Assembly: GCF_005870035.1 (NCBI RefSeq)
Contig: NZ_SWJG01000004.1
Coordinates: 254,604-318,603 of the forward strand
DNA: 64,000 nt
From: Spirosoma lacussanchae
GTDB taxonomy: Bacteria; Bacteroidota; Bacteroidia; Cytophagales; Spirosomataceae
Direction of reading: 5' to 3'
Shown: positions 4,324 through 64,000 of the stretch, in pieces
Layout: each line of letters opens with the position of its first letter
Numbering within the stretch: the stretch's first letter is position 1
The notes under the pieces: generated by a model
Database searches by the model: none
Seen by the model: only the letters and a program-made list of their open reading frames with translations
Told to the model about the DNA's origin: nothing
Translations under genes and position numbers: made by a program

Positions 4324-5406
4324 ATGAAATCATCTTTCCTGATTCTGCTGTGTCTGTCAGCGTGGGGGCCCGCTGCTGTTGCCCAAAATCAGCCGCTGCC
4401 CACTCCGTCGGCCACCGACCGCTTTGTTACCCGTCTGATGGACAAAGCAGGTATTCCGGGTCTGTCCATCGCCCTCATTCGCCACAATACGGTAGTCTAC
4501 AGCCAGGGATATGGCTTAACTAAAGCCGACTCGACCCAGCGGGTGACCCCGGCCACCGTTTTCGACGCGGCTTCGCTGAGCAAACCGGTCTTTGCCTACG
4601 CCGTGCTCCAACTGGTCGAAGCGGGTTTGCTGGACCTCGATAAGCCACTCTACGAATACCTGCCCTATGCCGACGTAGCGGCCGACGAGCGCTACAAAAA
4701 AATTACGACCCGGCTTGTACTCAGCCATGCATCAGGCCTGCCGAACTGGCGAAAAGATCGACGGTCGAACCAGCTGGCGATGCGCTACAATCCCGGCGAG
4801 CGGTTCGGCTACTCGGGCGAAGGCTTTGTTTATCTGCAAAAAGTAGTCGAGAAAATTACGGGGAAGCCAATCAACGAGCTGATGATCGAGCGGGTGTTCA
4901 AGCCCTTACAGATGACCCGGAGCAGCTACGTCTGGCAACCCGCTTTCGAGGCTGATTTCGCCTACCCTCACGACAAAGAATCCAATCCTGAGGACAAAGG
5001 TCGATTCACGCAGCCCAACATGGCGTACTCGCTCCAGACAACCGCCGACGATTATGCCCGGTTCGTGCTGGCGCTCCTGAACGCAAAAGGGCTGAAACCT
5101 GCTACGATCGAACAGATGCTCTCACACCAGCGCCAGCTGCCTAAAACGTTTTCGGGCACAGAACCGCTATCGCCGGGTTTGTTCTGGGGGCTGGGGATCG
5201 GCATTGAGAGTACCCCGTCCGGCGACTATTTCTGGCACTGGGGCGACAACGGTACGTTTCGGTGTTACGTAACCGCCGACCGCAAACGGGGCGATGGTAT
5301 TGTTTACTTCACCAACAGCTTCAACGGGCTGGACATTGCCGACGACATGGTTCAGCAGTTCATCGGCGGAGAACATCCAGCTCCTGCGTTTCTGGGTATC
5401 GATTAA
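4324..5406 (+). CDS. Serine hydrolase, class C beta-lactamase/esterase family
   Basis: This exported 360-residue protein has a signal peptide (1-20, ending AVAQ) and the beta-lactamase/transpeptidase-like fold. The nucleophile motif SxxK is Ser84-Leu-Ser-Lys87, and the family segment LSHASGLP lies at 133-140. The second motif reads Tyr163-Ser-Gly165 rather than the Tyr-x-Asn of true AmpC enzymes, and the third is replaced by HWGDNG near the C-terminus. These changes are common in esterases and peptidases of the family, so hydrolysis of an ester or D-amino-acid bond in the periplasm is more likely than antibiotic resistance. It may be co-transcribed with the outer-membrane protein that ends 39 bases upstream. 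Confidence 0.85.
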   Translation: MKSSFLILLCLSAWGPAAVAQNQPLPTPSATDRFVTRLMDKAGIPGLSIALIRHNTVVYSQGYGLTKADSTQRVTPATVFDAASLSKPVFAYAVLQLVEAGLLDLDKPLYEYLPYADVAADERYKKITTRLVLSHASGLPNWRKDRRSNQLAMRYNPGERFGYSGEGFVYLQKVVEKITGKPINELMIERVFKPLQMTRSSYVWQPAFEADFAYPHDKESNPEDKGRFTQPNMAYSLQTTADDYARFVLALLNAKGLKPATIEQMLSHQRQLPKTFSGTEPLSPGLFWGLGIGIESTPSGDYFWHWGDNGTFRCYVTADRKRGDGIVYFTNSFNGLDIADDMVQQFIGGEHPAPAFLGID

Positions 5407-5540
5407 CGACCATTCGATAGTACCCGGCGAGCGTGTTGCCAGCCGGGTGCCTGACAGCGCAGCGTCGGTAGCCGCGTTCGGTTTTCGTCTTTCTGATTCA
5501 GGTTGTCGGCTCAGGGCCTGCCTTAACTGAAAACTACTCC

Positions 5541-7718
5541 ATGAACAAACACGTTCTCATGCTGCTAGGACTGCTCATCGGGTACGCCCCGGCCTGTTCA
5601 GCGCAGCGGGTTACCATCCGGCAGACTGATCAATCGCCCCAGAGCCGGTATGCGGCAGCACAGCTGACAAAGGCCCTTAGCAGCCGGTCATACAGTGTAC
5701 AGACCGGTAAACAGCCAACCGACTTCAGCATCCGGCTGGCACCGGCTAATCCCGCACTGGGTGCCGAAGCTTATTCGCTCGACTGGCGTCAGAAACAGCT
5801 TACCATAACCGGTGGCGATGCAAGAGGGATGATTTACGGGGCCCTGTCGGTTGTCGAAGACCTGACAAACGGGATAGCCCTGCCGCAGCTTAAACCCCGC
5901 AGCGAACGGCCGCATTTGCCCCTCCGCGCCATTAAATTCGACCTTCCGTGGGATACGTACCGACATAGTTATGCGCTCGACCTGCACTACGAAACGTGCC
6001 GGGATACGCTCTACTGGCAAGCGTTTCTGGACATGATGGTGACCAACCGGTTCAACGCACTCAGCCTCTGGAATCTGCACCCCTACCCGTTCATGATCCG
6101 GCCAACTAACTTCCCGGCGGCTACCCCCTTCAGCGAGACGCAGATGGCCGACTGGCAGCGGCTCTTCAAAGCTATCTTCCGCATGGCCAGCGAACGGGCC
6201 ATCGAGACATACCTGATTCCGTTCAATATTTTCACCAGTCCCGAATTCTCTAAAGCCTACAACCCCAACCCGGCACTAAACAACCTCGACCATAAGCACT
6301 TCGTCGACGGCGACACCTCGGCCATTGTGAAGCGGTACACGCGCGAATGCGTTACGCAGGTCCTGCAGGAGTACCCCGAACTGACCGGGTTCGGGCTGAC
6401 CCTGGGCGAAGGGATGGGCGGCATGACACCCCAGCAGCGTGAAGACTGGATGAACCAGACCATCATTGAAGGCATGCGCCAGGCAGGCCGGAAAACGAAA
6501 CTGGTCCATCGGATTCCGTTCTCCAGTACTACCGGTTCGCTCGGTATAACGAGTGTCGAAACCGAAAAGCTGACCCGAAAATCCATCGAGCGCGAAGGGG
6601 CGCTGGACTTTATTGAAGGGCCAATCTGGGCCGACCTGAAATACAACTGGTCACACGCCCACTCCACGCCAACGCTGGTGAAAGTGCATGGGGGCAAACT
6701 ATACGACACCTATTTTAACCCCGTCCCATCGGCCTATAAAGTAACCTGGACTGCCCGCAACGAGGATTTTTTCTGCCTGCGCTGGGGCGTACCCGACTTT
6801 GTACGGGCGCACGTCAGGACCAACAGCCAGCCCTATGTCGGCGGGTATTTCCTGGGCTCGGAGACCTATATTCCGGCCCGCGATTACTTTACAGCCCCCG
6901 GCGGGCCGGTCAACTGGCGGTACGCGTTTGAGCGGCAATGGCTGTTTTACAAACTGTGGGGACGGCTGCTGTACAATCCGGCCACCGCCGATGCGGTGTT
7001 CCGGGCTGAGTTCGTGCGTCGGTACGGACCCAAGGCAGGTCCGTTGCTGGAGGCCTATGCGCTGGCGTCGACGACTCCGCTCCGGCTGGCTTCGGCTTTC
7101 GACTTCACCTGGGATTTCTCGCTGTACAGCGAAGGCATGATGGCACACGATGCCGACAAGAACGTCTCGTATATCTCCGTTAATCAGCAAATCACCCAAC
7201 CTACCCTCGACCCAACCTATGTGTCGGTCAGCGACTACGTGAAGACCACCAACGCGGGTGGATCGTTCGGTCCTGACAAAATGACCCCGACCCGACTGGC
7301 CCGGCTGCTGGAGCAGGACTGCCGGAAAGCGCTGCAACTGGTGAAGCCCATCCCGACTGCCGCCAGCCGATCGCTGCAGTACGAAGTGGCCGACGTGCTG
7401 GCATGGGCCAATCTGGGCTTACACCTGGCCGAGAAGCTGCGGGGCGCCGTTGCACTGCAAACCTACCGCACTACCGGCAACGAGACCAGCAAGCAGGCCG
7501 CGGTCCAACACCTGAAAGCCGCCCTTCGCTACTGGGATGAAGTAATTGCCATCACCCGTCCGCTCTACAACGACATGCCGCTGGTACACCTGAGCGAACA
7601 GAAAGGCAGCACCTGGGCCGAAAACGACAAACTCCGGTTTCACTGGGCGAAGCTACGACCCGCCGTGGCCGCCGACATTATCATTGCCGAGCAGTCCAAA
7701 CCTGTTCGGGCAGACTAA
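5541..7718 (+). CDS. Secreted glycoside-hydrolase-like protein (GH20/GH67-type N-terminal domain)
   Basis: This is a predicted periplasmic or secreted carbohydrate-active enzyme of 725 residues. It has a signal peptide (1-21, ending CSAQ), then an about 110-residue alpha/beta domain ending in GGDARGMIYGALSVVEDL, the pattern of the accessory domain found before GH20 and GH67 catalytic barrels. Next comes a large region with barrel-like strands (for example NRFNALSLWNLHPYPFMI and TGFGLTLGEGMGG), and a helical C-terminal part. The acidic residue pair of GH20 (Asp-Glu) is not clearly present, so the exact family is uncertain; uronic-acid-removing enzymes are an alternative. It is a single gene, with an EcsC-type gene converging on it 13 bases away. 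Confidence 0.65.
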   Translation: MNKHVLMLLGLLIGYAPACSAQRVTIRQTDQSPQSRYAAAQLTKALSSRSYSVQTGKQPTDFSIRLAPANPALGAEAYSLDWRQKQLTITGGDARGMIYGALSVVEDLTNGIALPQLKPRSERPHLPLRAIKFDLPWDTYRHSYALDLHYETCRDTLYWQAFLDMMVTNRFNALSLWNLHPYPFMIRPTNFPAATPFSETQMADWQRLFKAIFRMASERAIETYLIPFNIFTSPEFSKAYNPNPALNNLDHKHFVDGDTSAIVKRYTRECVTQVLQEYPELTGFGLTLGEGMGGMTPQQREDWMNQTIIEGMRQAGRKTKLVHRIPFSSTTGSLGITSVETEKLTRKSIEREGALDFIEGPIWADLKYNWSHAHSTPTLVKVHGGKLYDTYFNPVPSAYKVTWTARNEDFFCLRWGVPDFVRAHVRTNSQPYVGGYFLGSETYIPARDYFTAPGGPVNWRYAFERQWLFYKLWGRLLYNPATADAVFRAEFVRRYGPKAGPLLEAYALASTTPLRLASAFDFTWDFSLYSEGMMAHDADKNVSYISVNQQITQPTLDPTYVSVSDYVKTTNAGGSFGPDKMTPTRLARLLEQDCRKALQLVKPIPTAASRSLQYEVADVLAWANLGLHLAEKLRGAVALQTYRTTGNETSKQAAVQHLKAALRYWDEVIAITRPLYNDMPLVHLSEQKGSTWAENDKLRFHWAKLRPAVAADIIIAEQSKPVRAD

Positions 7719-9310: not shown

Positions 9311-10500
9311 AACCGGAGCCGCCCGGCCGCGTCTACATCAGCGGTGTTGTAGGCGATGAATACCGGAAACGGTTTGGCCACGGCCATCGTCTGCGGTTTC
9401 TGATCGATCAGGCATCGGTTCATGAATCCTTTGTCGAATGTTTCTTTGCCCAGCACGAAGTTGGCCAGCTCGACGGGTTTCTGTACCCGTACGCAGCCAT
9501 GACTCCGCCAGCGGTCGGCGGTAAGGGTAAACATATCCCGCCCGTTCGTATCGTGCAGATAGATAGCCAGCGGGTTGATCAGGTCGAACTTGATCAGTCC
9601 CAGGGCATTCTCGCAACCCGAAGCCTGCCGGATACGGTACGGAAAGTTTGTTTCTGACAGACTGGCCCAGTCAACATCTTCCGGGTTTACAACCTTATTC
9701 CGTTCGTCCAGCACCTCCAGATTCTGGTTGTACAGAAAGGCCACATCGCGCTGAATTTTGGGCAGCATTTCTTTGGTAGCAATACTTTTTGGCACGTTCC
9801 AGTACGGGTAAGCCACGATGTTCTGGATGGCTGTTGTCATGCAGGGAGTCCGTTTGTCGGCTTTACCGGCAATGACCTGCATCGGCAGCAGACGCCGGCC
9901 GCTCCGGTCAAATACATTGAGTTCGCCCGCCGGTATGTTGACCACCACAAACCGATCGCCCGCAAACCGATTGGTGTATCGGTAGAAATTGAGCGACTGC
10001 CGGATAATCCGCAGTGAATCGGCCATGGCGGGGCGGCTACCGGCCAGCTTCCGAAGCCGGTTATAATGGCCCACCAGCTGTTTGTAGGGGCCGAACGTAG
10101 CTGCACTGGCCAGCATACCATCCATTGATGATACATCGGCCTTCTGCGCCCACGACGAGTCAACGGCTTCTTTCAGCCCGTCGAACTCCATACGCGATGG
10201 CTTCTTGCCGTAGCGGATCTCCAGCAACAGCCGCGCCCGCTTATCGTCAAGCTGGGCCAGGGATGGCTGAGCGCCGACGGCAAAGCGACTGGTATCGATC
10301 CCGACTGAATCGGCATAGCGGCAAACCTGGTGCAGACTTTGGGTAGCCGCTGCCAGTTTTTCGTTCTCCTGCTCTACCTGAGCCTGCTTCTCCCGGTCGG
10401 CAGCCCGCTGAGTAAACAGGTAACGACCCACAAAAAACACGATAATAATCCCGGCAATGACGCCGATTAGTAGTCCAATTCTATTTTTATTCATGTTCAT
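9280..10500 (-). CDS. L,D-transpeptidase (YkuD/YcbB type), membrane anchored
   Basis: This 406-residue protein starts with a membrane anchor (about residues 8-28), then a charged coiled segment and a helical region, then the YkuD catalytic domain. The active-site motif is RWRSHGCVRV with Cys336 as nucleophile, preceded by the substrate-binding YLHDTNGRDMF segment. The layout resembles YcbB (LdtD), which makes 3-3 cross-links between peptidoglycan stem peptides, but the C-terminal tail after the active site is longer than in minimal YkuD proteins. It converges with the other L,D-transpeptidase (8582-9310) and their 3' ends overlap by 31 bases. Two starts are possible (ATG at 10500 and two codons later); the difference does not matter for function. 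Confidence 0.88.
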   Translation of the reverse strand: MNMNKNRIGLLIGVIAGIIIVFFVGRYLFTQRAADREKQAQVEQENEKLAAATQSLHQVCRYADSVGIDTSRFAVGAQPSLAQLDDKRARLLLEIRYGKKPSRMEFDGLKEAVDSSWAQKADVSSMDGMLASAATFGPYKQLVGHYNRLRKLAGSRPAMADSLRIIRQSLNFYRYTNRFAGDRFVVVNIPAGELNVFDRSGRRLLPMQVIAGKADKRTPCMTTAIQNIVAYPYWNVPKSIATKEMLPKIQRDVAFLYNQNLEVLDERNKVVNPEDVDWASLSETNFPYRIRQASGCENALGLIKFDLINPLAIYLHDTNGRDMFTLTADRWRSHGCVRVQKPVELANFVLGKETFDKGFMNRCLIDQKPQTMAVAKPFPVFIAYNTADVDAAGRLRFYKDVYGFDK

Positions 10501-59866: not shown

Positions 59867-60238
59867 CTATTTCGTTTGCAGTTCGAGGATTTTTATATAA
59901 TTTAATAAATATTGCTCACGTTCAATACTTCTTGCCCGCTCTTGCTCAAATTCGACAATTTTTTGGTCTCTTTCAAGCAACTGCTGTCGTTGCAATCGTA
60001 TTGTTTCTTCTAAATCCGTAGAAAATGTTTCTTTTCTTTCAGAGAAGAGTGTACTTATGGGTACACGTAGTACATGAGCAATTTGTTGAAGTCTGACGGT
60101 CGATAACTTTATTTTTCCATTCTCGATTTTTGAATACGTTGCCGGACTTACACCAATTTGTTCTGCAATGTATTCTTGTTTTAAATGTTTAGATTCCCGT
60201 AACACACGTAAATTAATTGCAAGTGATTTTATATCCAT
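59867..60238 (-). CDS. XRE-family HTH regulator with C-terminal coiled coil
   Basis: This 123-residue protein has a helix-turn-helix of the Cro/C1 (XRE) type over about residues 8-66, with IAEQIGVSPATYSKIENGKI as the recognition helix pair, and then a coiled coil of about 45 residues (TDLEETIRLQRQQLLERDQKIVEFEQERA) for dimerisation. It lies divergent to the peptide gene at 60442. A perfect 77-base palindrome sits between them, 27 bases from its start codon. The DNA is AT-rich, unlike the GC-rich genes to the left. It probably controls the peptide locus or itself (inference). Confidence 0.88.
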   Translation of the reverse strand: MDIKSLAINLRVLRESKHLKQEYIAEQIGVSPATYSKIENGKIKLSTVRLQQIAHVLRVPISTLFSERKETFSTDLEETIRLQRQQLLERDQKIVEFEQERARSIEREQYLLNYIKILELQTK

Positions 60239-60264: not shown

Positions 60265-60341
60265 AGCAAGTAGCATTCGAGACGGTAAAGTAGAATGAAA
60301 GTGACTTTCATTCTACTTTACCGTCTCGAATGCTACTTGCT
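60265..60341. repeat. Perfect 77-base palindrome (38-base arms, 1-base centre)
   Basis: Bases 60265-60302 are the exact reverse complement of 60304-60341, with a single G at 60303 between them. The arms begin AGCAAGTAGC and end GAATGAAAGT. Long perfect palindromes with a 1-base spacer are rare and unstable in bacteria, so this is either a strong cruciform-forming or regulatory site of the divergent region, the end of a mobile element, or an assembly fold-back artefact. Confidence 0.9.
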
Positions 60342-60441: not shown

Positions 60442-60606
60442 ATGAATCGTTTATCCCTGGCCGATTTGAAGGCAAAAGTCAATGTAGTAGCGAATGTTGA
60501 AGCCATTAAGGGCGGGACTGCAGAGGCTTGTCATTTAGGATCTTGCGGAGATACGACTATGCCAGCAGATGGCACCCGTGTCGCAAAACCAGGAAAAAGT
60601 ATTTAA
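60442..60606 (+). CDS. Candidate RiPP precursor peptide with double-glycine leader (54 residues)
   Basis: This short gene encodes a 54-residue peptide in two parts. The leader MNRLSLADLKAKVNVVANVE continues to AIKGG, so Gly24-Gly25 is a typical double-glycine cleavage site of Bacteroidota peptide precursors. The core of 29 residues begins TAEACHLGSCGDTT and ends VAKPGKSI; it has Cys30, Cys35 and two Asp residues (37 and 43) after the GG. The start is the ATG at 60442 and the stop is at 60604-60606. A hairpin follows before the next gene. Peptides of this form are usual substrates for modifying enzymes encoded next to them. That it is translated is inferred from form and position. An alternative frame across it (60330-60500) was rejected. 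Confidence 0.7.
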   Translation: MNRLSLADLKAKVNVVANVEAIKGGTAEACHLGSCGDTTMPADGTRVAKPGKSI

Positions 60607-60668: not shown

Positions 60669-61820
60669 ATGAGAGGATATTCTGTTTCAACAATCCTAAT
60701 ATTACTATCATTTGCAGCATGCTCCCAACCCATACAAAATACAACTACTCAAACATTGTTTATTAATCCATCTGTTATTAATCAAGATGACTCGGAAGTA
60801 AAAGAAGTCATATCGGTTTGGAGGAAGTACTTATTGACTAAAGACTCATTATATCAAACTAATCCTTATTGGTCTAATCTGGAATACAAGAAAAGAAACA
60901 TACCAGATTATTTTCTTAAACGGATTAATCACTCTGGAATTTTTAATCAAAAAAATCTATATAAACCCACTGTATTATCTGTTGTAAGAGACGATAGTTC
61001 TTATATCATTAAAACCTTGTTTGCAACCGCAGAAAAAGACAACGGATTTTCTCGCGTTTCTGGAATAATTAATGTTGAAGCAATAAAAGAAAATGGAAAT
61101 TGGAAGCTAAAATCTATGTTAGATCAAAACCTAAAAAAGTATCAACAATATCAGGCTGGTAAAATTCTATATTATTTTTCTAAAAATAGAAAATTAGACA
61201 CATTACTTTGTAACAAATTTAACGAAATAAACACAGACATAGCTAGAAAATTTGACGTTTCTCCTATGGATATTATTTATTATTTATGCACAGATAATAA
61301 TGAACTGCAACGTTTAATTGGATTTGACTATGAGATTTCAATGGCTTATCCTAACCAGGTAAGTGGCCTTGCCGACATTTTCAATAATACTATTTATGCG
61401 GGTAATAATAGTGAATGGTACCCGCACGAGTTAGTACACCTTTATGTAAAGGATAAGTTTGGATTTGCAGTAAATTATTGTTTTAATGAGGGCATAGCAA
61501 CATATCTCGGTGGTAGTGTTGGGAATTCTCTACAATATCATTTGCATAAGATAGCGGTATATGTTAGAAATCACTCTGTAGATTTTACTAAATTATCATC
61601 CTTAGAACGTATTGATGACGAGACGAATTTTCAGTACAGTATTGGTGGCTTAATTTGTAAGATAGCTGATGAACGCTTGGGATTTGAAGGTATTAACAAA
61701 CTTCTTCAAACTGGAGACTCAGATGAAGAAATGTTTCAGGCCATCGAAAATACATTGGGTGTAAAACGAGGAAATTTTAATGAGTTTATTCACACTGAAT
61801 TAAAAAAATATGTCAATTAA
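60669..61820 (+). CDS. Exported HExxH lipoprotein (gluzincin-like metallopeptidase candidate)
   Basis: This 383-residue protein has a lipoprotein signal peptide with lipobox FAAC (Cys18). A zinc-binding motif HELVH (His253 to His257) is followed by Glu274 in NEGIATYLGG, the arrangement of gluzincin-type peptidases (MA-like clan). The ATG at 60669 was chosen because it begins the signal; a TTG at 60654 adds five residues. The region before the motif is of unclear fold. It is AT-rich and its stop overlaps the next gene by 11 bases. It may cleave the leader of the exported peptide outside the cytoplasm, but that is only suggested by position. Confidence 0.75.
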   Translation: MRGYSVSTILILLSFAACSQPIQNTTTQTLFINPSVINQDDSEVKEVISVWRKYLLTKDSLYQTNPYWSNLEYKKRNIPDYFLKRINHSGIFNQKNLYKPTVLSVVRDDSSYIIKTLFATAEKDNGFSRVSGIINVEAIKENGNWKLKSMLDQNLKKYQQYQAGKILYYFSKNRKLDTLLCNKFNEINTDIARKFDVSPMDIIYYLCTDNNELQRLIGFDYEISMAYPNQVSGLADIFNNTIYAGNNSEWYPHELVHLYVKDKFGFAVNYCFNEGIATYLGGSVGNSLQYHLHKIAVYVRNHSVDFTKLSSLERIDDETNFQYSIGGLICKIADERLGFEGINKLLQTGDSDEEMFQAIENTLGVKRGNFNEFIHTELKKYVN

Positions 61821-62955
61821 GTTATTTAGTTTAGAGGTTGACGATTTCTTGGTTCAATCTAATCAGATCGAGTTATCAGACACTGTTCGTTTGCTTTTAT
61901 ATCAGCAGTATCCTAGCTGGTTTGAATACTTAGCGTACGACAATGATGCCATATTTCTTGAGCCTACTCTCTTCTATTCTTTTTCTGACAAATCCTTATG
62001 CGAATTACCTATAGAACAAATATTATTTGGCTATCTACCTGAAGATAAGCGCCCTGGTCAATTTAAAGCTCTTATTGACCCATATGGCTTAATTAGTTTG
62101 CCCAGCTATGGATATATCCATACTAGTTATTCAAAAGAAATCATAGAGATTAACAAGTCAGATATTAATAACTTTAGCAATAAACACACTTTATTAGAAG
62201 AGTCTATTCAGCTTAACCAACACGTTCCTTTTATATTTTATACAGATAAAGTTATGAAATTAAAAGTTAATGAACCAATATCAAAAACCATATCTACACA
62301 TAAGTTACATTTACTAAAAGCATTTGAATTTTTGCAAAAATATTCACGTAAATTTTGGGAGATTATAAAATTAGTAACACGAGAAATTACTTTATTCAAT
62401 AGCCCGAATCAGCGTTCTATGGCGGCAATTTCCTATCATGGAACAGCATTTATTAATACAGAAGGGCAGGCACATGACGAGGTTTTCTTTATAGAAGATT
62501 TAGCACATCAATGTGGTCATATAATTTTTTATGCTTTAACGTTGAAGGCGAACGACTTTCTCAAAATTCGGAAAGAAACGCCAGTATGTGATATAACCGG
62601 TGTTCAACATGACAGCCGAACAGTCTATGGTGTGTTTCATGGTCTTTTTACTTACACTACTATCCTTTATTGCTTAACCGAATGTTTAAAATCAGGCGTT
62701 TTTAGCTATTCGCAACAGTTAGAGTCAATAGCTCGTATTGGCTTTTTTATGCAAAAATTTCAGGTGGATTTAATTTATATGAACCATCCTGAAATTTTCA
62801 CTCCGAAAGGCTGGCTAATATACTCAAGTGCTAAAGATAGCTTTGAACAGATTCAGCAGATGTTTAAAGCTGACTATGCGCTTTATCGCTATGATAATCA
62901 ACCTTACATTTTTAACTATGAATTATTTAGAGAAGCCAATGGTATTCTTACGTAA
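61810..62955 (+). CDS. Candidate alpha-ketoglutarate/HExxH-type peptide beta-hydroxylase (HQCGH variant)
   Basis: This 381-residue protein has no signal peptide. Its central part reads EVFFIEDLAHQCGHIIFYAL, where His233 and His237 hold the places of the HExxH motif, but Gln replaces Glu. About 40 residues later comes DSRTVYGVFHGLF with His277, a hallmark that I associate with the aKG-HExxH-type peptide beta-hydroxylase family (TIGR04267), which modifies RiPP precursors. The likeness is by eye. The gene starts inside the end of the lipoprotein gene (11-base overlap), and the next gene starts inside its end (17-base overlap), so the three are translationally coupled. The most likely substrate is the peptide at 60442-60606. 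Confidence 0.6.
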   Translation: MSIKLFSLEVDDFLVQSNQIELSDTVRLLLYQQYPSWFEYLAYDNDAIFLEPTLFYSFSDKSLCELPIEQILFGYLPEDKRPGQFKALIDPYGLISLPSYGYIHTSYSKEIIEINKSDINNFSNKHTLLEESIQLNQHVPFIFYTDKVMKLKVNEPISKTISTHKLHLLKAFEFLQKYSRKFWEIIKLVTREITLFNSPNQRSMAAISYHGTAFINTEGQAHDEVFFIEDLAHQCGHIIFYALTLKANDFLKIRKETPVCDITGVQHDSRTVYGVFHGLFTYTTILYCLTECLKSGVFSYSQQLESIARIGFFMQKFQVDLIYMNHPEIFTPKGWLIYSSAKDSFEQIQQMFKADYALYRYDNQPYIFNYELFREANGILT

Positions 62956-64000
62956 ATTTAGTCTGTTATTTTTGTTTGTAAGTACGCCAATCTGGCTGCT
63001 GGCTCAAATAAGTCGGCAGCCAGATTATAGTAATGCCCTAAAAGCTAAGGCGATTCTTGATCAGGCTATTGATTATAGCGGACTAGGATCGGATAGCCTG
63101 AATATGGTTATTTCTGCTAAGGGCGTAATGCATGAGTCCGGGCATTTTTCGGCCCCCGAAGAGCGGATCGACGTACCCGAGACCTATACGCTAAGTATCT
63201 TCAGTAGCATAGAGAATTATTATATTGATGGCCAGATAAATTTTCGGGGTCGGAATCTTACCCGGCAGGTATATGTGAAACAGGATAGTATCTTTTATAG
63301 GGACCATTTTGGCAGGGGCGTTAGCCGGGAGGCCCTGATCCGATCTATCCCTGTCTATAATGAAATTCTGGCATTGCATCCGGCTTTGATTTTGAACGAG
63401 GCTCGTCGGTCTTTGCTTTCATTGCGGTACCTAGGAAAAGTGGGAGCTGTCGCCTTGCTCTCATTCTCTACCAACCAAACTTCCTTTACGCTTCATATTT
63501 TGCCGAATGGACAAGTTAAACAAGTTTCGTATTTGGCAAGTCACAATTATTATGGCGATAATGTTCACAGATATGATTACCTGGACTATAAGCCTATAGC
63601 AGGCTACAATCTGCCAACTCGCTTTAACGAATATGAGTTTGGTGGCTTACGGAAGGACCTGACGTTTACTTACGACTTTGCACCTACCTTAACCTTGCCT
63701 GTCAATCAGGTTTGTCCAGGATGCTCTCTTGTGCCGAAGAGAAAAAATGCCAATATAACCGTGAAAAATTTGGGTGGTGATTTGTATAGCGTTGATTTAA
63801 ATGCTTACAACAATCGCTCGTTGTTTCTGGTCGCAAAAAATGGAGTTACGGTCTTCGAGGCTCCTGTAAGTTATAAGGCGGGTCGGGATGTTATTGAAGC
63901 CGTAAACCAAACAACAGGAGGTAAACCTATTACTCAACTGATGGTAACGCACCACCACCCCGACCATGCAGGTGGCCTGCGCGCCTTTGCCGAACAAGGG
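62939..64000 (+). CDS. Exported MBL-fold metallohydrolase, 3' end cut by window
   Basis: The frame stays open to the end of the window, 354 residues so far. It begins MVFLRKFSLLFLFV, a signal peptide ending LLAQ at 22-23. A mostly beta N-terminal domain of about 230 residues follows, and the metal-binding motif THHHPDHAGG (His338, His340, Asp342, His343) is reached just before the edge. The motif identifies a metallo-beta-lactamase fold; the rest of the domain is outside. It contains an isolated CPGC pair around residues 258-261. The start codon overlaps the hydroxylase-like gene by 17 bases. The base composition rises again to near the genome level, so it may be a resident gene next to the AT-rich locus. 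Confidence 0.85.
   Translation, partial: MVFLRKFSLLFLFVSTPIWLLAQISRQPDYSNALKAKAILDQAIDYSGLGSDSLNMVISAKGVMHESGHFSAPEERIDVPETYTLSIFSSIENYYIDGQINFRGRNLTRQVYVKQDSIFYRDHFGRGVSREALIRSIPVYNEILALHPALILNEARRSLLSLRYLGKVGAVALLSFSTNQTSFTLHILPNGQVKQVSYLASHNYYGDNVHRYDYLDYKPIAGYNLPTRFNEYEFGGLRKDLTFTYDFAPTLTLPVNQVCPGCSLVPKRKNANITVKNLGGDLYSVDLNAYNNRSLFLVAKNGVTVFEAPVSYKAGRDVIEAVNQTTGGKPITQLMVTHHHPDHAGGLRAFAEQG

Follow-up and report, generated by a model that had tools for sequence, protein, structure and literature searches.

Results

Gene organization around the HQxxH gene

The stretch analysed here (the window) comprises 64,000 nucleotides of Spirosoma lacussanchae and carries toward its right end an operon preceded by a divergent Xre-type regulator gene (Table 1). 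The operon encodes a short precursor peptide, a secreted lipoprotein, an HQxxH enzyme and an exported protein whose gene runs past the window. The HQxxH gene shares an overlap of 11 bp with the lipoprotein gene upstream and one of 17 bp with the gene downstream, and is present as a single copy in its own genome. Beyond the window, the gene for the exported protein is followed by genes for a C39-peptidase ABC exporter and then an HlyD-type protein. The operon thereby holds both a double-glycine (GG) leader precursor and a C39-peptidase ABC exporter; cleavage itself is predicted. Most loci of relatives of the enzyme also have the C39 exporter and its HlyD partner, and the metallo-beta-lactamase (MBL) protein, a CPBP protein and the HELVH lipoprotein come and go by clade.

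Genes similar to the regulator adjoin several enzyme relatives. Defence-system models gave general HTH matches only for the regulator and no match for the enzyme. The lipoprotein had no Pfam or NCBIfam match, and in a structural comparison its model, of moderate confidence (pLDDT 76.6), resembled M1 peptidases and collagenase, with a best E of 1e-4. Homologues of this lipoprotein adjoin several HQxxH enzymes, and the one at locus L027 has HDLWH instead of HELVH.

The inverted repeat between the regulator and precursor genes occurs at one place only in its own genome. Another perfect inverted repeat, 41 bp and of different sequence, occupies the same place at locus L015 (7699-7781). The repeat may serve as an operator or form an RNA hairpin, and the presence of such a repeat in two genomes makes an artefact of assembly less likely.

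Table 1. Coordinates of the features, in the window unless a locus handle is given.
Feature	Position	Strand	Basis
Xre-type HTH regulator, transcribed divergently to the operon	59867..60238	-	Pfam HTH_3, E 3.1e-15
Perfect inverted repeat (arms of 38 bp around a 1-nt centre), between the genes of the regulator and the precursor	60265..60341	.	sequence
Precursor peptide, 54 aa, double-glycine leader and core	60442..60606	+	leader/CH pattern, precursor profile
Secreted lipoprotein with HELVH...NEG, gluzincin metallopeptidase-like	60669..61820	+	motif, model
HQxxH enzyme, alphaKG-HExxH oxygenase-like, 381 aa	61810..62955	+	ORF, motif, TIGR04267, fold, profile alignment, conservation
HQCGH motif (H233, Q234, C235, G236, H237)	62506..62520	+	sequence; conservation among 59
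Codon of H233	62506-62508	+	
Codon of Q234 (caa)	62509-62511	+	
Codon of H237	62518-62520	+	
R270, which aligns with the DPRP Arg of HExxH hydroxylases	62617..62619	+	R in 55/59; also in 5/5 pseudoenzymes
H277, likely third metal ligand	62638..62640	+	kept in 57/59; lost in 5/5 pseudoenzymes; His also in LLHA of ChlH
Exported protein, C-terminal metallo-beta-lactamase fold; gene runs past the window	62939..64000	+	Pfam, neighbourhood (L013 8939-13951)
Tandem pseudoenzyme copies without metal motif	L054 11506-12645; L055 11522-12661; L057 11514-12677; L058 11438-12583; L061 11901-13034		

Gln is nearly fixed in the motif of relatives

The enzyme carries HQCGH within IEDLAHQCGHIIF (H233, Q234 and H237), with R270 and H277 further downstream. 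The first-pass annotation had described HQCGH replacing the HExxH of peptide hydroxylases with both His and the downstream H277 kept, and the ORF, its coordinates and the motif were found as it described. A Pfam search of the enzyme gave no significant match.

Relatives were gathered by a protein search of 99 related genomes, 10 of which hold one, and by a collection scan with a 7-row alignment, which returned 48 loci, mostly from Bacteroidota, with 3 from Planctomycetota and 1 from Streptomyces. The patterns used in the scan (FF[IV][DE]D[IL]AH and YG[AV]FHGLF) partly impose H233 or H277 and leave Q234 and H237 free. The family is rare, being found in 5 of 395 sampled Bacteroidota genomes. When identical sequences were counted once, 68 distinct homologues remained; 64 cover the site and 59 have both motif histidines. 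At position 234, 58 of these 59 have Gln and one has Glu (HQCGH, 23; HQTGH, 20; HQGGH and HQSGH, 4 each; HQGSH, 3; HQCAH, 2; HQGAH, HQCSH and HEGSH, 1 each). HQCGH is therefore no one-off, and the Gln pattern is beyond chance. Position 235, by contrast, holds Cys, Thr, Ser or Gly, so that Cys, unlike Gln, is not conserved and Cys235 was ruled out as a metal ligand.

Only 15 of 349 scored columns reach at least 95% identity, and H233, Q234, H237, H277 and E305 are among them, each kept in 57 to 59 of the 59 sequences. The two sequences that lack H277 have Tyr or Asn, and R270 is absent from four. Either H267 or H277 had been proposed as third metal ligand. H267 was ruled out, since it already varies in the alignment of the seven nearest full-length sequences, which leaves H277 as the better candidate.

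The HQxxH enzymes form a clade with tandem pseudoenzyme copies

In a maximum-likelihood tree of 71 rows, in which the program flagged some outgroup rows as long-branched, the HQxxH family formed one clade of 62 rows (support 98/95) beside the alphaKG HExxH peptide hydroxylases. The subfamily suspected from the window alone thus corresponds to a supported clade with a near-fixed Gln. L119, which has HQCAH, is the sister of L118, the only sequence with Glu (support 100/99), and the fork joining L060, the L118/L119 pair and the remainder is weakly supported (87/74). Since L118 pairs with an HQCAH sequence, the simplest reading would be one basal Glu-to-Gln change followed by one reversal to Glu in L118.

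The revertant HExxH enzyme at L135 (7497-9146) is 549 aa long, with a C-terminal extension fused to it and two GGILGACH precursors nearby. Broken or shortened enzyme copies occur at L022 (4682-5870), L023 (7965 onward) and L137 (about 5400-6500), with CH precursors still nearby. At L067 (5477-7741), a Streptomyces protein of 754 aa contains an HQGGH domain.

Five loci (three from Kordia, one from Aureivirga and one from Mucilaginibacter) have a second, tandem copy lacking the site. These pseudoenzymes form one clade (100/100), and each adjoins an HQ copy. Among the columns conserved in the 59 relatives, all five have lost Q234, H237, H277, E305 and Q364, and four have lost H233, while P52, P98, G101, G211 and R270 are kept in all five. 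This joint loss with retention of structural residues marks H233, Q234, H237, H277 and E305 as probably functional. Because the true pseudoenzymes lost Q234, H237, H277 and E305 together, HQxxH itself looks active, catalysis being predicted from these comparisons. Conversely, R270 was dropped as a diagnostic of alphaKG binding since all five pseudoenzymes retain it. With R270 missing from four of the 59 relatives but present in every pseudoenzyme, its role may lie in the structure and not in anchoring alphaKG.

The predicted fold is that of ChlH and SjiH

The AlphaFold2 model of the enzyme, built from 39 aligned sequences, reached a pLDDT of 92.8 and a pTM of 0.92. A Foldseek search of the PDB matched it to the HExxH domain of ChlH (8s5f, E 1.7e-8) and to SjiH-Ni (22ob, E 2.0e-8), with every other row at E 0.6 or worse. 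VIA-align ranked the same two structures on top (8s5f, Z 23.4, rmsd 2.9 over 281; 22ob, Z 23.4, rmsd 4.5 over 338), followed by a row at Z 6.3 and by zinc peptidases at about Z 6 or less; other fold families remain compatible with both lists. The model thus has the ChlH fold, in keeping with the initial description of the protein as peptide-hydroxylase-like. Direct sequence searches of the PDB with the enzyme and with the 39-member profile gave no relevant chain, and fold comparison alone found these kin. In the topology of the model, the next long helix behind that of the motif has H277 close to its beginning, and the metal geometry deduced from this arrangement is putative.

Comparison of the family profile with 32 genuine HExxH members using hhalign (probability 95.4, E 1.9e-8) placed HQ opposite HE, R270 opposite the DPRP Arg, which is invariant, and H277 opposite His/Gln. 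The enzyme therefore has both motif histidines, the downstream Arg and the His/Gln of these members. ChlH (LIHEHRH...LRPPSGLLHA) has His at the place of H277, and SjiH and genuine members of its type have Gln there. All 32 genuine members have HExxH with Glu, which the enzyme of the window and nearly all of its clade replace by Gln.

The TIGR04267 model (aKG-HExxH-type peptide beta-hydroxylase), proposed at first pass as a check, aligned with residues 173-287 of the enzyme (E 5.2e-5) at 23.3 bits, below its cut-off of 40; the predicted model nonetheless has the ChlH fold. TIGR04267 matched only 10 of the 39 members of the enzyme profile at E 0.1, and its search of 296 Bacteroidota genomes returned the window's own gene only. 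The enzyme lies outside TIGR04267 by score and by motif, yet it shares the fold and has its gene beside that of a ribosomal peptide precursor, and should work like TIGR04267 enzymes. At locus L079, in the Flavobacterium genome of L043, a genuine HExxH enzyme (LVHEAIH) has a C39 ABC exporter and a radical SAM-type protein as neighbours (named by eye).

A Cys-His pair is invariant in the neighbouring precursors

The precursor of the window consists of the leader MNRLSLADLKAKVNVVANVEAIKGG and a core that begins with TAEACHLGSCGD and contains the conserved pair C30 and H31. To count such peptides, duplicate loci (L025, L032, L044 and L076) were removed and short ORFs within 3.5 kb were searched in the remaining 54 loci with a leader pattern that does not contain CH, although it was drawn up after some precursors had been viewed. 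We found 52 leader-type ORFs in 44 of the 54 loci, and all 52 have CH in the core soon after GG (51 by script; the last one, from L071, was cut at a second GG and has its CH before it). CH stands exactly four residues after GG in 41 of the 51. When the cores were aligned on the pair, CH were the sole invariant residues, other positions reaching at most 21 of 52. In 2,000 trials with shuffled cores, CH appeared on average in 4.9 of the 52 and never in more than 12.

Among the 10 loci without a pattern match, L021 and L046 do carry CH precursors with a GG leader, which fall beyond the distance limit or deviate from the pattern, L035, L037 and L050 have the Planctomycetota precursor type described below, and L042, L060 and L066 lie near contig ends. 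No CH peptide was found at L063 and L067, where the flank is sufficient. Precursors beside the enzyme/pseudoenzyme pairs have a doubled motif, e.g. DCHTDNCH, at all five loci. Precursors with GGILGACH or GGIMGACH likewise accompany the HExxH revertant L135 and L136, its HQCAH sister. This argues that Glu or Gln alone would not set the substrate.

A precursor profile (E 1e-4 or better) hit exactly the same 10 of 99 genomes as the enzyme. If the two were independent, the probability of this overlap by chance would be 6e-14, a value that serves as a guide only given relatedness and linkage. At the three Planctomycetota loci, neither a C39 exporter nor a GG leader was found beside the gene. The gene directly upstream of it encodes in each case a small unrelated protein that has CH and, as judged by eye, a Tat-like signal, and is of the form T(K/R)CHK..MR..GIWIPELVPVF or MMCHEEMR..HGIWIPELVPVF. 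At L035 the small protein with the GIWIPELVPVF tail is encoded at 9580-9906, and in L037 and L050 such proteins directly precede the enzyme.

None of the scanned precursors scored over an NCBIfam or Pfam cut-off, and that of the window has no model in either. TIGR04149 (GG rSAM-modified RiPP, cut-off 25 bits) did not match the window precursor and gave 10.4 bits for L016 and 10.1 bits for L028. A haem c motif was ruled out as the meaning of CH, CxxCH not being the common feature (by eye).

Discussion

The near-fixed Gln of the enzyme and the Cys-His peptides encoded next to it point to an undescribed kind of peptide modification. In our judgement, the HQxxH clade probably consists of active Fe/alphaKG oxygenases of ChlH-type fold that oxidise the Cys-His pair, most likely by beta-hydroxylation of His, with export of the product by the C39 transporter and perhaps with loss of proteolysis. 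Our data show the fold and the clade, the conserved residues, the operon, the motif of the peptides and their co-occurrence with the enzyme, whereas the metal, the cosubstrate, the target residue and the reaction are what we infer. According to published accounts, ChlH-type related enzymes depend on Fe(II) and alphaKG (PMC12636437, PMC13060819); the residues hydroxylated are Asp and His for ChlH, Gln for PflC and PosC, which also cut the backbone (PMC12636437), and Pro for PesO (PMC13060819). In the HQxxH enzyme, one Fe(II) would probably be held by H233, H237 and H277, and alphaKG and O2 would be used for oxidising the invariant Cys-His of the cognate leader peptide, the most likely product being beta-hydroxylated His. 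The C39 domain of the exporter would then cut after Gly-Gly and secrete the peptide. H277 as third ligand is unsure because genuine SjiH-type members have Gln at this place, and the CH pair could have a role in recognition or function rather than being the modified site.

PflC is also reported to hydrolyse the leaderless peptide with Zn, Co or Fe (PMC12636437). By analogy with zincins, Glu is presumed to be the hydrolytic base in the related HExxH oxygenases. The Glu-to-Gln change would then be the loss of a general base that could underlie this metal-dependent peptidase side activity, and the HQxxH clade may have kept oxygenation while shedding proteolysis.

It is improbable that the HQxxH protein is an inactive scaffold or leader-binding partner, as had also been suggested at first pass. 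In zincins, the Glu of HExxH is the catalytic base, and its replacement by Gln classically inactivates the protease. Pseudoenzymes are also known in RiPP clusters, such as PesX (PMC13060819), and within the HQxxH family. However, diverged sequences retain the two His, the Gln, H277 and E305, whereas the five true pseudoenzymes lost such residues jointly while each adjoins an HQ copy, and no alternative modifying enzyme is conspicuous among the operons listed. A metallopeptidase that trims the precursor seems highly improbable. The active-site helix is zincin-like and the activity of PflC gives a precedent, but the general base of zincin metallopeptidases is absent from 58 of the 59 relatives, with Q234 in its place in the window, the GG cut is already supplied by the C39 exporter, and the fold matches are to oxygenases rather than to zinc peptidases.

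The same metal site could also support another reaction in which Cys is obligatory, i.e. an oxidative cross-link (thioether), Cys oxidation or backbone oxidation, which we regard as unlikely. Plain His hydroxylation leaves unexplained a Cys that is fixed next to His in all 52 cores while all other core positions vary, so that a Cys-dependent reaction has to be kept in view. The two oxidations reported for PflC and PosC are consistent with such versatility. On the other hand, members of the alphaKG-HExxH family hydroxylate or cleave in the reports covered here and none cross-links, and the revertant (L118/L135) lies beside CH precursors too, which indicates that Gln is not needed for the link to CH. 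A broader version of this idea, which we hold tentatively, is that of a separate iron-oxygenase lineage that would recognise Cys-His anywhere, in GG-leader peptides of Bacteroidota as in Tat-like proteins of Planctomycetota, and carry out a Cys-dependent oxidation, e.g. a Cys-His cross-link, the loss of the Glu base separating oxygenation from latent peptidase activity. If true, this reading would define a class of modified peptides that has yet to be described.

The description of alphaKG-HExxH oxygenases is recent, and their protease-like fold raises the question of why they oxidise rather than hydrolyse, PflC doing both. A clade with a natural replacement of Glu, one revertant and five dead copies makes the role of Glu directly testable. 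Furthermore, the invariant Cys-His near the leader cut site gives the search for a new modification of peptides, in Bacteroidota as well as Planctomycetota, a precise target.

In the open-access literature, HQxxH or HQxGH turned up only in papers apparently on other zincins (ACE3, ADAM and CLCA), and searches there on Bacteroidota peptides gave nothing recognisable as an HQxxH/Cys-His system. PolE (DUF6421), described as an oxidase that uses Fe and pterin and has the motif HE/DxxHx(21-23)E (PMC12614342), has in common with the HQxxH enzyme an HExxH-like iron site for oxidation; substrate and cofactor differ, and the apparent likeness is in the motif only. With double-glycine/C39 systems of bacteriocin and RiPP type, the HQxxH loci share the GG leader, the C39 exporter and the HlyD partner. 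Unlike GG peptides of those systems, the HQxxH-linked core has an invariant Cys-His, and none of the NCBIfam or Pfam models passes its cut-off with the scanned precursors. The closest known systems are the alphaKG-HExxH hydroxylases (TIGR04267/IPR026337: ChlH, SjiH, PflC, PosC, PesO and BpmH/BipH), with which the HQxxH enzyme shares the fold, the two motif histidines, the downstream Arg, the His as in ChlH and an operon with a peptide precursor. Unlike these enzymes, the HQxxH enzymes form a separate clade with a near-fixed Gln and a score below the family cut-off, and their locus in the window, which has no radical SAM fusion, instead combines Cys-His precursors with a GG leader and a C39 exporter.
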